Below, one piece after another: positions 9,228 through 25,738 of a DNA stretch of 30,587 nucleotides. The DNA is from a virus. The stretch is from positions 1-30,587 of IMG/VR virus record IMGVR_UViG_3300043496_000078; one strand, written 5' to 3'. Each line of letters starts with the position of its first letter. Positions within the stretch are counted from its first letter, which is position 1. The notes under the pieces were generated by a model, which saw nothing but the letters and a program-made list of their open reading frames with translations, searched no databases and was not told the origin of the DNA. The position numbers and the translations under genes are program-made.

Positions 9228-10563
9228 CCTGCCTTGCCAGGCCCAGCCCTGCCACGCCCCGCTCTGCCGCGCCTAGCCCTGCCCTGCCGGCCTTGCCAGC
9301 CCTGCCACGCCCCGCTCTGCCGCACCTAGCCCTGCCCTGTCCCGGACGGGCCATGCCCGGCCGCGCCCCGCCAGCCTTGCCTTGCTCCGCTTTTGCCGCG
9401 CCAAGCCATGCCACGCCGCGCCAAGCCCTGCCGGCTTTGCCTTGCCGCGCCTAGCCGTACCCGGACTCGGCATGCCATAGCGCGCCACGCAGAGACGTGC
9501 CTCGCCAGCCGTGCCTTGCCGAGCCATGCCGAGCCTAGCCTCGCCAGGCCATGCCGAGCCTTGCCAGCCTTGCCTCGCCCAACCCAACCCGGCCTCGTCG
9601 AGCCACGCCAGGCCCGGCCACTCCGCGCCAAGCCACGCCAGCCTTGCCTTGCCTTGCCAGCCTTGCCGAGCCAAGCGTTGCCGCGCTTGGCCTAGCCCGG
9701 CCTTGCCGAACCGCGCCAGCCTTGCCATGCCTTGCCCTGCCGTGCCCTGCCAAACCGAGGCTTGCCGGACTTCGCCATGCCCTACCTCGCCATGCCAGCC
9801 TTGCCTTGCCCGGCTCTGCCGGGACCAGCCAGACTTCGCACCGTCGCGCCGTGCCACGCACTGCAAGGCCGTGCCTAGCCGCGCCGGCCTTGCCTCGCCT
9901 TGCCGAACCGGACCGGGCTGTGCCTGGCCGCGCCAAGCCAAGCCCCGCCGGCCTCGCCTTGCCCAGTCATGCCGCGCCCTGCCAGAACTCGCCCTGCCTC
10001 GTCGAGCCAGGCCACGCTCGGCTTCGCCCGGCCAGCCTCGCGTTGCCTCGCCACGCCTTGCCGCGCCCTGCCGTGCCCGGCCAGGCCTCGCCCCGCCCCG
10101 CCAGCCTTGCCTCGCCACGCCTTGCCGAGCCTTGCCGCGCCCTGCCGTGCCGTGCCCCGCCGGCCTTGCCTAAACGAGCCGTGCCGAGCCTTGCCGGGAT
10201 CTGCATAGCCGAGCCAAGCCACACTCGGCCGAGTCCTGCCGCGCCGCGCCAAGCCATGCCGTGCCAGCCTCGCCGCGCCTAGCCATGCCGTGCCGAGCCT
10301 TGCCGCGCCTTGCCGGCCTTGCCACGCCGTGCCCCGGCTGCGCCTTACCCTGCCTAGCCGCGCATTGCCACGCCGAGCCAGCCTTGCCTTGCCGAGCCCT
10401 GCCCTGTTCTGTCGGACAGAGCCATGACCGGCCGAGCCGTGCCTTGCCAGCCTTGCGTTGCCGCGCCACGCCAAGCCGAGCCGCGCCGCACTGTGCCGAA
10501 CCTGGCCAGCCTTGCCATGCCGTGCTAAGCCCCGCCGCGACCCTGCCGGGCCGAACCTTGCCA
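9228..10563. repeat. degenerate GCC-rich pentanucleotide array, about 1.3 kb
   Basis: Almost the whole stretch follows CCNNG every 5 bp, read on (+) as GCCTTGCCNNGCC and so on. Frequent 4-bp variants give a 9-bp form CCAGCCTTG. The (+) strand is extremely C-rich and the (-) strand G-rich (GGCAAGGC-type). Because 3 codons equal nine bases and 15 bp equal three units, every frame gives the same cycling peptide (Gly-Lys-Ala-Arg-Gln on the minus strand). Long open frames therefore appear on both strands without implying genes. It lies between the leftward early operon and xis-int. Possible roles: origin, R-loop or spacer DNA, or simple expansion. No function is shown. Confidence 0.9.
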
Positions 10564-17443: not shown

Positions 17444-17634
17444 ACCCGTACCTGTTGCTGCAGGCACGCATCGAGGCCCGGTCGGTGCTGTTTAACGCGG
17501 CCGAATATGACTCGCTCGGCGAGGCGATCGATCCGCTGCTGGCCTATGCCGACGACAGCGGCATTACCCAGGACATAGGTTCGGACAATGTGGTGGCCAT
17601 GGTTTTGAAAGGTTTTGGCGTTGATGTCGGTTGA
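17440..17634 (+). CDS. small acidic hypothetical protein, 64 aa
   Basis: MNPYLLLQARIEARSVLFNA, then GEAIDPLLAYADDSG and VVAMVLKGFGVDVG: soluble, acidic and helical. The start overlaps the upstream stop by ATGA, and its end overlaps the next gene by 11 bp. No family recognised. Confidence 0.6.
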   Translation: MNPYLLLQARIEARSVLFNAAEYDSLGEAIDPLLAYADDSGITQDIGSDNVVAMVLKGFGVDVG

Positions 17635-18355
17635 AAGCCGGACCATAGGTTGGTTCTCTTGCGGTGCCGCATCTGCCGTCGCGGTAAAACTCACACATGC
17701 GCTGCCGGTCTATTGCGATACCGGATCCGAACATCCCGACAACGTGCGTTTCCTAGCAGACTGCGAGCGATGGTTCGGCTGCACGGTGAAGCGGCTGAAA
17801 TCGGAACGCTATAAGGACACCTGGGACGTATGGCGAAGACGTCGGTATCTCGCCGGTGTCGACGGCGCGCTCTGCACGGTCGAATTGAAGGTAATGCCGC
17901 GGCTTGCTTTCCAGCGACCCGACGATCAGCACGTTTTCGGCTACACCGCCGACGCTCTTGACATGGCGCGGGCCGAGCGGCTGCGCGCTACCTTCCCGGA
18001 GCTGATCATCCATACCCCACTGATTGAGCGCGGCCTAAGCAAAGCCGCGTGCCTCGACATCATCCAGCGCGCGGGCATCGCGTTGCCGCCGCTCTATGCG
18101 ATGGGGTTCCAGAACAACAACTGCCTACCGTGCGTGAAGGCGACGAGCCCGGACTATTGGGCATTGGTGCGCCGCCGGTTCCCAGACAAGTTCGATCGCA
18201 TGGCCAAACTATCGCGTGAGCTTGACGTGCGACTGTGCCGCCTAGAGGGCGAGCGCGCGTTCATCGATGAGATACCGCTCGACCATCCGACTATCCATCC
18301 AATCCAGCCGGCCTGCGACTTCCTCTGCTACATCGCGGAGGTGGATTTGCAATGA
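17624..18355 (+). CDS. PAPS reductase-like ATP-pyrophosphatase-fold protein
   Basis: A 243-residue protein of the adenine nucleotide alpha hydrolase superfamily. Residues 10-18 (WFSCGAASA) are the modified SGGxxS-type P-loop; PVYCDTGSEHPDN (28-40) follows the second strand; CTVELKVMPRL (84-94) and a CxxC at 167-170 (NNNCLPC) complete the PAPS-reductase pattern. Relatives reduce sulfate esters or, as DndC, help place sulfur in DNA. Phage copies have no proven job. ATG 17624 is preferred over TTG 17615. It is ATGA-coupled to the helicase. Confidence 0.75.
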   Translation: MSVESRTIGWFSCGAASAVAVKLTHALPVYCDTGSEHPDNVRFLADCERWFGCTVKRLKSERYKDTWDVWRRRRYLAGVDGALCTVELKVMPRLAFQRPDDQHVFGYTADALDMARAERLRATFPELIIHTPLIERGLSKAACLDIIQRAGIALPPLYAMGFQNNNCLPCVKATSPDYWALVRRRFPDKFDRMAKLSRELDVRLCRLEGERAFIDEIPLDHPTIHPIQPACDFLCYIAEVDLQ

Positions 18356-19806
18356 CAGAGTTAGGCACCTTTGCGGAAGGCTTTGCGTCCTGGCGGCGCG
18401 TGCTGGCGTCATGTCCGCCGGCGGCGCGCTTAACCGTATTCGAAAACGCCGCCCATGACGTGGCGCAATACATCATCAAAGGGCTCGATAAGGTTATTGC
18501 GAGCGATGAGCTCTATGAGATCGCTACCGCGCACAATGTCGCCGAGGGCGACGCCGATGTGGTGCAGGGCGTTATCGTGCGCGCGTTCTATGACATCGAG
18601 GCCGAGCTCGAGCGCGTCCCGCCGGACGATCTCGAGCGCCGCAAAGGCAAGGGTAACGGCCACGATCACGGCCAGCGCGCGCGACCTTATCTCTTGCCCG
18701 ATCCGGCGACGATTCCGCCACGGCAATGGCTGCATGGTCGCCACTATATGCGCTGCGTTGTCACCGCCACGGTGGCACCAGGTGGTTTCGGCAAGACCTC
18801 GTTGTCGCTGTTCGAAGCGCTGGAAATGATCAAGGCCGGCCTGCGCGTCTGGTACATCAGCGCCGAGGACGATCGCGACGAGCTCGATCGGCGCATCGCC
18901 GCCTACGTCAAACGCCACACCATCACGCCGATGGAAATGGCCAGCAACTTTTTCGTCGACGACAAGATATCGTTTCCGATCAAGCTCGCCAAAATGGGCA
19001 AGAACGGCGCGGCGTTCGACGAGCATAAACTGGCGGAATTCGAGGCCGCGATCGCGATCGATCGCATCGACGTGGTGATCCTCGATCCGCTGATCAGCTT
19101 CCACTATCTGCCCGAGAACGACACCAGCTCGATGGATCTGTTGGTCAAGCGGCTCGGCGAGGTCTGCGTGCGCCGCCAATGCTGCATCGAGCTCTCGCAC
19201 CACGTGCGCAAGCCCACCATGGGCCAGGCCGAGATCACCGTCTATGACGCCCGCGGCGCCGGCGCCATCGTCAATGCGGTGCGTAGTTGCCGGGTGCTCA
19301 ACCAGATGAGCATGGTCGAGGCACAGCAGGCCGAGGTCGAGGTCGAGCAGCGCTCGTTCTACATCCGCGTCGATCCCGGCAAGCGCAACATGGCACCACC
19401 GGAAAAGGCGCGCTGGCGCAAGCTGGTCTCTGTCGAGATCGCCAACGGCGACAATGTGCAGGCGATCGAACGCTACGAATACCCGAAAATCTTTTCCAAG
19501 CTCAGCACCCTCGACGTCGAATGGATCAAGGGCCTGCTGGCAGTGCGCGACTACCGCGTCGACACGCGATCCGGTGACTGGCTCGGGCTGCCGATCGCCG
19601 AGCGCTTCGGCCGCGATCCGAAGGCGAACGAGGGCGACGCCAAGTGGATCTCCGCCGTGCTCAAGACCTGGGAAAAAAACAAGGTATTCAAGCGTGAGGA
19701 ACTCGAAGATGTGCACCGCAAACCGAAGTGGTTTTACGTCCCCATCAACGGTCGTCCGAGGCGGGAAATCGTGTTCGTCGAGGAGCAGGATGACATGGAA
19801 CTCTGA
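18352..19806 (+). CDS. RepA/RecA-like AAA ATPase, candidate replicative helicase
   Basis: A 484-residue protein. Walker A is APGGFGKTS (142-150), SAEDD (170-174) holds the candidate catalytic glutamate, Walker B is VVILDP (241-246), and LSHHVRK (281-287) is the sensor-like motif. This is the AAA_25/RepA hexameric-helicase pattern. The N-terminal 110 residues are helical with a Lys/Gly/His linker. The C-terminus (residues 400-484) looks like a winged-helix extension. It is followed directly by iteron-like DNA, which supports a replication-initiation role as in RSF1010 RepA systems. That last step is inference. Confidence 0.85.
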   Translation: MTELGTFAEGFASWRRVLASCPPAARLTVFENAAHDVAQYIIKGLDKVIASDELYEIATAHNVAEGDADVVQGVIVRAFYDIEAELERVPPDDLERRKGKGNGHDHGQRARPYLLPDPATIPPRQWLHGRHYMRCVVTATVAPGGFGKTSLSLFEALEMIKAGLRVWYISAEDDRDELDRRIAAYVKRHTITPMEMASNFFVDDKISFPIKLAKMGKNGAAFDEHKLAEFEAAIAIDRIDVVILDPLISFHYLPENDTSSMDLLVKRLGEVCVRRQCCIELSHHVRKPTMGQAEITVYDARGAGAIVNAVRSCRVLNQMSMVEAQQAEVEVEQRSFYIRVDPGKRNMAPPEKARWRKLVSVEIANGDNVQAIERYEYPKIFSKLSTLDVEWIKGLLAVRDYRVDTRSGDWLGLPIAERFGRDPKANEGDAKWISAVLKTWEKNKVFKREELEDVHRKPKWFYVPINGRPRREIVFVEEQDDMEL

Positions 19807-19813
19807 TTCTCTC

Positions 19814-20003
19814 ACTGCCGCGGGACTGCCGCGGGACTGCCGCAGACTGGCGCAAACTGCCTGCGGCGGAAAACCGGTATTTGCGCCAGTGCGCCAGTTG
19901 GGGGCGTCCCCTACGTGGGACGCCTCCAAACTGTCGTGGGGCGTCCACGCCCCCAACTGGCGCTCAAGCCAGGCGCAATGACCGCCGCGGGACTGCCGCA
20001 GAC
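19814..20003. repeat. iteron and inverted-repeat region, candidate replication origin
   Basis: Units of ACTGCCGCGGG start at 19814, 19825 and 19836 (the last ends CAG), with weaker ones at 19846 and 19856. A 20-bp exact repeat lies at 19828-19847 and 19984-20003. A perfect 17-bp inverted repeat lies at 19891-19907 and 19947-19963. Two local hairpins (19903-19910 with 19917-19924; 19938-19944 with 19947-19953) compete with it. TGCGCCAG is also doubled at 19882-19897. No gene fits here. The position right after the helicase gene favours an origin. Confidence 0.6.
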
Positions 20004-22946: not shown

Positions 22947-23432
22947 ATGAGCTATTGGACCGTCGTGCAAGTCGAAAGCCAGTGCGAGCATGTCGTGCGC
23001 CTGTTGCTCATGCGCGCTCGTTTTCAAACCTATATGCCACGGATCCGGGACCGCCGCCGTGTGGCCCCGTTGTTTCCCGGCTACCTGTTCGTGCGCATCG
23101 TCGATCGCTGGTATCCCGTAGTTTGGACGGTCGGTGTCGTGCGCCTGCTCATGTCGGGCGATCAGCCGGCGTGTTTATCGGAAAAAATCATGAACGAGAT
23201 TCGCAAACGCGAAGATCGCGACGGTTATGTCAAGTTGCCATCGCCGACAAACGGACTGCGCAAGGGCCAGCACGTGCGCATCACCCGCGGCAGTTTCGAG
23301 GGACAGATCGCACTCTGCGAGGGCATGAGCAGCAAGGATCGGGTTTGGGTTCTGCTCAACCTGATGGGTCAGAAGGTGCCGGTCGAGCTTTCCGGTCGTG
23401 ATCTCGAGCCACTACCTGTTGCGGCTCAATAG
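22947..23432 (+). CDS. NusG/RfaH-like transcription antitermination protein
   Basis: A 161-residue protein. Residues 3-85 are the NGN domain (WTVVQVESQCEHVVRLLLM, then LFPGYLFVRI, the family hallmark at 42-51). Residues 104-155 are the KOW domain (LRKGQHVRITRGSFEGQIAL). Full length for the family. AGGAA precedes the ATG. It lies directly upstream of the packaging/head genes, so it probably lets RNA polymerase read through into the late operon. Specific targets are unknown. Confidence 0.85.
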   Translation: MSYWTVVQVESQCEHVVRLLLMRARFQTYMPRIRDRRRVAPLFPGYLFVRIVDRWYPVVWTVGVVRLLMSGDQPACLSEKIMNEIRKREDRDGYVKLPSPTNGLRKGQHVRITRGSFEGQIALCEGMSSKDRVWVLLNLMGQKVPVELSGRDLEPLPVAAQ

Positions 23433-24454: not shown

Positions 24455-25738
24455 TTGGAACCAAATTTGTGGCCTGCAGACAAGGTTGAGCGGTGGCCGA
24501 TCGATCGGCTGGTTCCGTACGCGCGCAACGCGCGGACCCACAGCGATGAGCAGATTGACCAGGTTGCGGCGTCGATCCGGGAGTGGGGTTGGACGAATCC
24601 GGTTCTCGTCGGGGAGGATGGCGGGATCATTGCGGGCCATTGCCGGGTGCTGGCGGGCAGGCAACTCGGTCTGGCCGAGGTGCCGGTGATGTTGGCGGTC
24701 GGTTGGAGCGAGGCGCAGAAGCGCGCGTATGTCCTGGCCGACAATCAATTGGCGCTGAACGCAGGCTGGAACCCGGAGTTGTTGCGGCTCGAGCTGGGCG
24801 AGTTGCAGGGGCTGGGGTTTGATATCGGGCTGATTGGATTCGGCGACATACGTCCCACGGGCTTGACGGATCCGGATGCTACTCCGGAACTGCCTGCCAT
24901 TCCCATCTCGCTACTCGGCGATCTATGGATTTTGGGACGGCATCGGCTGTTATGTGGCGATGCGACTACCAAGGCGGATGTCGAGCGGGTGACCACTGGG
25001 GTGCAACCCCATTTGATGGTAACCGACCCACCGTATGGCGTCGACTATGACGCCGCCTGGCGGGTCCGCGCCGGCCTCAACAATCCGACGGCGGCAAACG
25101 GCAAGGTAATCAACGATGATCGGGTCGACTGGCGCGACGCTTGGGCGCTGTTCCCCGGCCATGTCGCCTATGTCTGGCATAGCGGTCTGCACTCGGCAGA
25201 GGTGCTCGACTCGTTAGCGGCACGGCGGCTGCGCATGCGGGCGCAAATTGTTTGGGTCAAGACCCGGCCAGTGATCGGGCGCGGTGCCTACCATTGGCAG
25301 CATGAGCCGTGCGCCTATGCGGTTGAGGATGGTGCCGACGATCGCTGGCGTTTCATCCCCGAGCACGAAATTCTGTCCTATGCGGTTGGCGATGGCAGAG
25401 CGGAATGGCATGGCGGCCGCAAGCAATCGACCGTGTGGCATATCGAGCACATCAAGTCGGAGACTGGGCATTCGGCGCAGAAGCCGGTCGAGTGCATGAA
25501 GCGGCCGATCGAGAACAACTCCTCGCCCGGCCACGCGGTCTATGATCCGTTCGTCGGCTCGGGCACCACGATCATCGCCGCTGAGACGACCGGTCGCGCA
25601 TGTTACGCGCTCGAAATCAATCCCGCCTATTGCGACGTCTCGATCGAGCGCTGGCAGAACTTCACCGGCGAGCGGGCGACGCTCGACGGGCGCGCCTTTG
25701 AGGACATAGCCGCCGCTCGGCGGCAGGAGGCGGCATGA
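24455..25738 (+). CDS. ParB-N domain fused to beta-class DNA methyltransferase
   Basis: A 427-residue protein starting with TTG. Residues 12-110 are a ParB/Srx-like N-terminal domain (PIDRLVPYARNARTHSDEQI, GGIIAGHCRVLAGRQLG with the GHxR core, and LADNQLALN). Residues 150-410 are a methyltransferase with DPPYG (191-195) before DPFVGSGTT (364-372), the beta-class order; DPPY fits N6-adenine or N4-cytosine. Phages often place this fusion just before the terminase. It may modify phage DNA or mark packaging sites. ATGA-coupled to the small terminase candidate. Confidence 0.9.
   Translation: MEPNLWPADKVERWPIDRLVPYARNARTHSDEQIDQVAASIREWGWTNPVLVGEDGGIIAGHCRVLAGRQLGLAEVPVMLAVGWSEAQKRAYVLADNQLALNAGWNPELLRLELGELQGLGFDIGLIGFGDIRPTGLTDPDATPELPAIPISLLGDLWILGRHRLLCGDATTKADVERVTTGVQPHLMVTDPPYGVDYDAAWRVRAGLNNPTAANGKVINDDRVDWRDAWALFPGHVAYVWHSGLHSAEVLDSLAARRLRMRAQIVWVKTRPVIGRGAYHWQHEPCAYAVEDGADDRWRFIPEHEILSYAVGDGRAEWHGGRKQSTVWHIEHIKSETGHSAQKPVECMKRPIENNSSPGHAVYDPFVGSGTTIIAAETTGRACYALEINPAYCDVSIERWQNFTGERATLDGRAFEDIAAARRQEAA

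Follow-up and report, generated by a model that had tools for sequence, protein, structure and literature searches.

The C-terminal domains of SaPI Rep and SCCmec Cch2 bind iterons located just downstream of the genes that encode these proteins (PMC7581432). RSF1010 (IncQ) has an origin with iterons and hairpins, and hairpins comparable to the one described below serve there as primase sites (PMC4234260). For the archaeal plasmid pRN1, the origin lies directly downstream of the replication gene and is described as a stem-loop without iterons (PMC4234260). Here we set beside these systems a locus from a 30,587-bp virus record (the window, i.e., the whole stretch of DNA analyzed) in which an integrase, a terminase, a capsid protein and a RecE-like exonuclease were recognized. 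Repeats fill the 221-bp gap between the stop codon of a helicase gene (19806) and the start of the next, small gene (20028), and comparison with related loci makes it likely that this gap is the replication origin of the phage and that the helicase encoded just upstream is its initiator. The features of the locus are as follows.

18352..19806, + strand: RepA-like (AAA_25) helicase, 484 aa, proposed initiator (Pfam AAA_25, 8e-24)
19507..19743, + strand: C-terminal winged-helix domain of the helicase, residues 386-464, proposed iteron reader (AlphaFold2)
19567..19569, + strand: codon of R406, which tracks the first variable iteron base (R/K: ACTG; Q: GGTG)
19714..19722, + strand: codons of wing-tip residues H455, R456 and K457, of which 455 and 457 track the central iteron bases
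19814..19843, + strand: three ACTGCCGC iteron variants at 11-bp spacing (19814, 19825, 19836)
19846..19854, + strand: iteron ACTGGCGCA, exact predicted form
19882..19890, - strand: inverted iteron ACTGGCGCA, exact predicted form
19890..19898, - strand: inverted iteron ACTGGCGCA, exact predicted form, adjoining the hairpin
19898..19929, no strand: hairpin TTGGGGGCGTCCC-CTACGT-GGGACGCCTCCAA
19930..19936, + strand: degenerate iteron ACTGTCG 3' of the hairpin (locus L005 likewise has one there)
19947..19963: second arm (first at 19891-19907) of the 17-bp perfect inverted repeat; near relatives showed no such pairing
19956..19964, + strand: iteron ACTGGCGCT
19981..20000, + strand: iteron variants ACCGCCGC (19981) and ACTGCCGCA (19992), within the second copy of the 20-bp repeat (19984-20003)

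The five iteron units, 20-bp exact repeat and 17-bp perfect inverted repeat listed in the initial annotation were all recovered at the same positions: ACTGCCGC occurs at 19814, 19825, 19836 and 19992, a one-off fifth unit, ACCGCCGC, at 19981, the two copies of the exact repeat GCCGCGGGACTGCCGCAGAC at 19828-19847 and 19984-20003, and the arms of the inverted repeat at 19891-19907 and 19947-19963. A second iteron form, ACTGGCGC, which had been overlooked and is the form conserved among relatives, is present in the gap at 19846(+), 19883(-), 19891(-) and 19956(+). The gap repeats are far beyond chance, with eight ACTGSCGC sites on the two strands of the 221-bp gap (maximum of 2 in 2000 shuffles) and an inverted repeat of 17 bp (longest across 100 shuffles, 10 bp). 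Neither similarity of the gap DNA to known phages nor a clear AT-rich unwinding element in the gap was found. Elsewhere in the window, positions 9231-10440 hold a GCCNN array of approximately 1.2 kb in which 137 GCC-to-GCC distances are 5 bp; this degenerate pentanucleotide array has no counterpart in the rest of the window.

The gene that the repeats directly follow was read in the initial annotation as that of a RepA-like helicase. AAA_25 was the only Pfam domain assigned to the protein, and RSF1010 RepA was both the only match of the helicase alignment profile in the PDB (E = 6e-28) and the top fold match of the helicase model; by profile and fold, the ATPase domain is related to the RSF1010 replicative helicase RepA and belongs to the RecA-fold, hexameric helicases of the RepA family. 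The AlphaFold2 model of the helicase (mean pLDDT 89.5) has a winged helix at its C-terminus, and this domain, when modelled alone with AlphaFold2 (mean pLDDT 87.4), matched winged-helix domains with a best Z of 7.1, a value indicative of a common fold only. In the predicted model, residues 453-457 form the turn between two wing strands and residue 406 lies in the loop preceding the helix at 412. Directly 5' of the helicase gene is a phosphoadenosine phosphosulfate reductase-like gene (17615-18355), a position at which some relatives have a primase domain.

The comparison set comprised approximately 200 related phages and prophages in all. Alignment-based scans yielded 80 viral loci and 80 bacterial-genome loci, the latter nearly all from Alphaproteobacteria; a genome-contig scan with the single helicase protein gave no match, but the alignment query did find loci. 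The same architecture, in which arrays of a 9-bp iteron, (A/G)(C/G)TGNNGCA, flank a hairpin often bearing a CCC-TANN-GGG apex, occupies the same position in relatives down to approximately 32% helicase identity. In the nearest viral relatives (58-60% identity), a ACTGGCGC array directly 3' of the helicase gene is followed by an inverted copy, the hairpin and more direct copies, and two plasmids (38-40% identity) have a matching layout but with AGGTGGGG words. The commonest 8-mer within 400 bp 3' of the helicase stop codon is a word of the (A/G)(C/G)TGNNGCA family in most loci (ACTGGCGCA, GTGTCGCA, GTGGGGCA, CTGGAGCA, CTGATGCA and GTGACGCA, among others), and in many loci its count exceeds that of every control stretch from the same contig. 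Three or more copies of one iteron type were found at 124 of 162 loci and in 8 of 622 other, length-matched stretches. Using a typing consensus derived from the first set of loci, we found that one iteron type dominates within a phage and that types differ between phages, with 20 types among 86 deduplicated loci. The initial annotation had held that a lack of repeat conservation in phages with the same helicase would speak against an origin; arrays are conserved in these relatives, next to the replication gene, and the comparison lends good support to an iteron-type origin.

Not every relative has this arrangement. Some helicase relatives have no recognizable array near the helicase, and the named phage RHph_X2_26 has the helicase and no iteron array of the (A/G)(C/G)TGNNGCA form. 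A wider look at array-less loci located an array approximately 1-2 kb away in L163 (TC x10), L174 (AC x8) and L114 (GC x4). The word alone is no marker, because when tandem ACTGGCGCA was tried as a search word against viral contigs, most dense matches fell inside long ORFs as 9-bp in-frame repeats that are apparently coding. Relatives encode a primase beside the helicase or fused to it, and no primase gene was recognized among the window proteins scanned. One relative (L369, NZ_AP024151.1) is a circular 31.5-kb Methylobacterium plasmid that carries a phage tail gene, a Toprim primase and the same helicase, and no further replication protein was recognized among the genes of this plasmid that were checked. 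A Rhodoplanes phage-plasmid with the same helicase has a NusG-family gene close to it; in the window, 22947-23432 encodes a NusG-like protein (Pfam NusG; PHROG transcription antiterminator).

At 86 loci, the variable iteron bases were compared with each alignment column across the C-terminal 400 residues of the helicase. Residue 406 gave z = 55.5 for the first variable base (ACTG or GGTG) and the next column 13.5, with R paired with C in 28 of 28 loci, K with C in 2 of 2 and Q with G in 55 of 56 (85 of 86 loci in total). Residues 457 and 455 ranked highest for the last variable base, and typical wing pairs (455, 457) corresponded to the central bases as HK-GC (5/5), QH-AC (3/3), AR-GA (3/3), QR-GA (4/5) and IK-AC (4/4). 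We think that the sole exception to the residue 406 rule, L244, is mistyped, since its typing used three sites and two close relatives, L160 and L224, have the GGTGGGG type; it was kept in these counts and left out of the close-pair comparison described below. Taken together with the predicted fold, this pattern suggests that the C-terminal winged helix of the helicase reads the iterons through residues 406, 455 and 457. The ParB-like protein that had been put forward as a possible binder is not supported: its ParB-like domain is the N-terminal part of a fusion with a DNA methyltransferase (24455-25738, just before the terminase genes), and it is the helicase with which the iterons covary base by base.

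Because related sequences can covary by descent, controls for relatedness were applied. A tree of the 86 loci built from the ATPase domain only requires a minimum of 51 changes of the central dinucleotide and 11 of the first base. We also formed 55 disjoint pairs of closest relatives. Residue 457 differed in 31 of the 36 pairs with different central bases and in none of the 19 pairs with the same central bases (Fisher 1.5e-10, a value that overstates independence because several pairs share clades); for residue 455 the counts were 28 of 36 and 2 of 19, respectively, and the column ranked next is much weaker. For the first base, there are only five tree-supported independent pairs, of which four agree, none oppose and one shows no change. 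An example of a close pair is L073 and L137, whose ATPase domains are 98% identical and which have wings HRK and QRR and iterons GC and GA, respectively. In these and related loci, helicases with 97-98% ATPase identity differ in wing and iteron, as if the C-terminal domain and the origin had been swapped jointly.

Near-identical helicases that differ mainly at the C-terminus could also be expected if a separate DNA-binding protein read the iterons and merely travelled with the helicase C-terminus through linkage, the 3' end of the gene and the array being exchanged together. Such linkage would mark all columns at the end of the gene alike, whereas 457, 455 and 406 stand out, and both the gene 3' of the array and the primase type (Prim-Pol or Toprim) vary between loci. 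Moreover, the arrays displaced by 1-2 kb in L163, L174 and L114 still fit residues 406 and 457: each has the last base predicted by residue 457, although the fit to residue 406 is not an independent test because the search fixed the first base from that residue. We therefore regard a separate, linked reader as very improbable.

Recognition by the helicase itself was further assessed with a held-out set of 47 helicases less than 97% identical to the earlier ones, drawn from a scan with a different query, plasmids and one named phage. The rules from the first set gave the correct first base at 31 of 31 typed loci and the correct last base at 26 of 30; with near-duplicates removed, the counts were 27 of 27 (residue 406) and 22 of 26 (residue 457), and none of 100,000 permutations reached either count. 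The code is only partly solved, since the full central pair was correct in 15 of 22 held-out loci. In the window, R406, H455 and K457 predict the iteron ACTGGCGCA, of which the gap has three exact copies together with one ACTGGCGCT. The ACTGCCGC units depart from the predicted iteron by a single base, at a central position, and may represent weaker sites; half of the iterons in the window are of this variant form, which counts against the explanation that we favor.

The hairpin is the second conserved element of the architecture. For 55 of 91 regions, 20 shuffles produced a hairpin as good as the best one no more than once; of these 55 hairpins, 45 lie between iterons. A CCC-TANN-GGG apex occurs in 46 of 88 regions as compared with 12 of 1,218 control stretches, with CCCCTAAAGGGG alone present in 19 regions. 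Position and apex type are conserved while the stem sequence varies (GGGGGCGTCCCCTACGTGGGACGCCTCC in the window versus GGGGGTCTCTCCCTACGGGAGAGAGACCCCC in L005), and inverted iterons lie mainly 5' of the hairpin, with direct iterons on both sides. By analogy with RSF1010, we infer that the hairpin is a priming site in loci that combine an AAA_25 helicase with iterons.

The initial annotation had also raised the possibility that competing folds act as an RNA switch, and a function as RNA, whether switch, attenuator or terminator, would account for the stable fold of the gap (z = -7.1 when folded as single-strand DNA) and for the two long inverted repeats that have a common arm in the window. However, the gap contains no intrinsic terminator and has no Rfam match, and the nearest relatives keep one hairpin without a second copy of its arm, so that the switch lacks support: the second arm of the window has no counterpart in near relatives. 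Function as RNA would also leave the base-by-base tracking of a DNA-binding wing unexplained, and we find this account scarcely credible. The earlier interpretation thus survives in its central part, an iteron origin, which the comparison supports well; the RNA switch and the ParB-like binder are not supported.

The conserved architecture and position, the uniformity of iterons within a phage and their difference between phages, the covariation with its success in predicting held-out loci and the predicted winged-helix fold support the following mechanism. The iterons would be bound directly by the C-terminal winged helix of the helicase, with loop residue 406 setting the first variable base and wing-tip residues 455 and 457 setting the two central bases. 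Once bound, the copies would load the RepA-type ring of the helicase at the hairpin between the iterons, and a single-stranded structure for priming would probably be exposed there. The iteron and the wing change together, and each phage would therefore have its own origin specificity. For the window protein, this mechanism predicts that, among ACTGGCGCA, ACTGCCGCA and GGTGGGGCA, binding to ACTGGCGCA is preferred, binding to the ACTGCCGC form is weaker and the GGTG form is not bound; changing the wing from HRK to QRR, as in L137, is predicted to shift the preference to ACTGGAGCA.

Origin function is the best-supported reading rather than a direct observation, because GC skew is silent, some relatives have no recognizable array and the typing consensus came from the first set of loci. 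Covariation indicates recognition and not replication, and the repeats to which the winged helix binds could instead serve in control or incompatibility (copy control or autoregulation), with the true origin elsewhere. Iteron arrays of known plasmids also function in copy control, and GC skew, calculated for the window and for three circular plasmids, gave no origin signal that would mark the site. On the other hand, the array lies 3' of the gene with no promoter-like site, a conserved hairpin between iterons suits an origin better than an operator, and SaPI and Cch2 have an origin or putative origin at the same position (PMC7581432). A control site with the origin elsewhere thus seems unlikely to us.

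A probable origin has been located and a probable initiator named for mostly uncharacterized alphaproteobacterial phages, prophages and phage-like plasmids, and the amino acids that would read the origin have been pointed to. We consider it reasonably probable that these are widespread phage and prophage replicons in which a RepA-type ring helicase acts as a self-recruiting initiator and a winged-helix code (406, 455, 457) has been repeatedly rewritten together with the iteron, giving private origins. If this is true, origin sequence would be largely predictable from the helicase protein. Private origins perhaps avoid replication interference between co-resident prophages, and the system thus bears on how co-resident phages hold their replication separate. 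It also provides a natural data set for rapidly changing protein-DNA specificity, as iterons switch at 97-98% ATPase-domain identity.

We found no description of the (A/G)(C/G)TGNNGCA iteron family or of the wing code in the open-licence literature. The closest parallels in working are SaPI Rep/ori and Cch2, in which the helicase is likewise the initiator, the iterons lie directly downstream and specificity is element-specific (PMC7581432); the window locus shares the position of the iterons, and reading of them by the C-terminal domain is suggested by covariation. Their helicases are DUF927/MCM-like and D5/Primase_Cterm, whereas the present helicase, to which only AAA_25 was assigned and for which neither of those domains was found, is of the RecA-fold RepA type with a winged helix, and occurs in alphaproteobacterial phages and prophages. 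From its profile and fold, the window element groups by its helicase with RSF1010 RepA, and it resembles SaPI Rep/ori in working without being a member of that group. The pRN1 protein ORF904 also carries a winged helix on the helicase protein, its origin has the same placement relative to the gene, and its stem-loop is kept in structure and not in sequence (PMC4234260); it differs in being an SF3 helicase of an archaeal plasmid and in its iteron-free origin (PMC4234260). RSF1010 shares the helicase family and an origin with iterons and hairpins, but there a separate RepC reads the iterons and RepA is without an extra domain (PMC4234260). No RepC was seen among the window proteins scanned (a subset of ORFs), and it is the extra domain of the helicase that tracks the iterons. 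The reader thus appears to be fused to the helicase, so that one protein would unite a RepA-type helicase and an iteron-binding domain, parts that are usually found apart.
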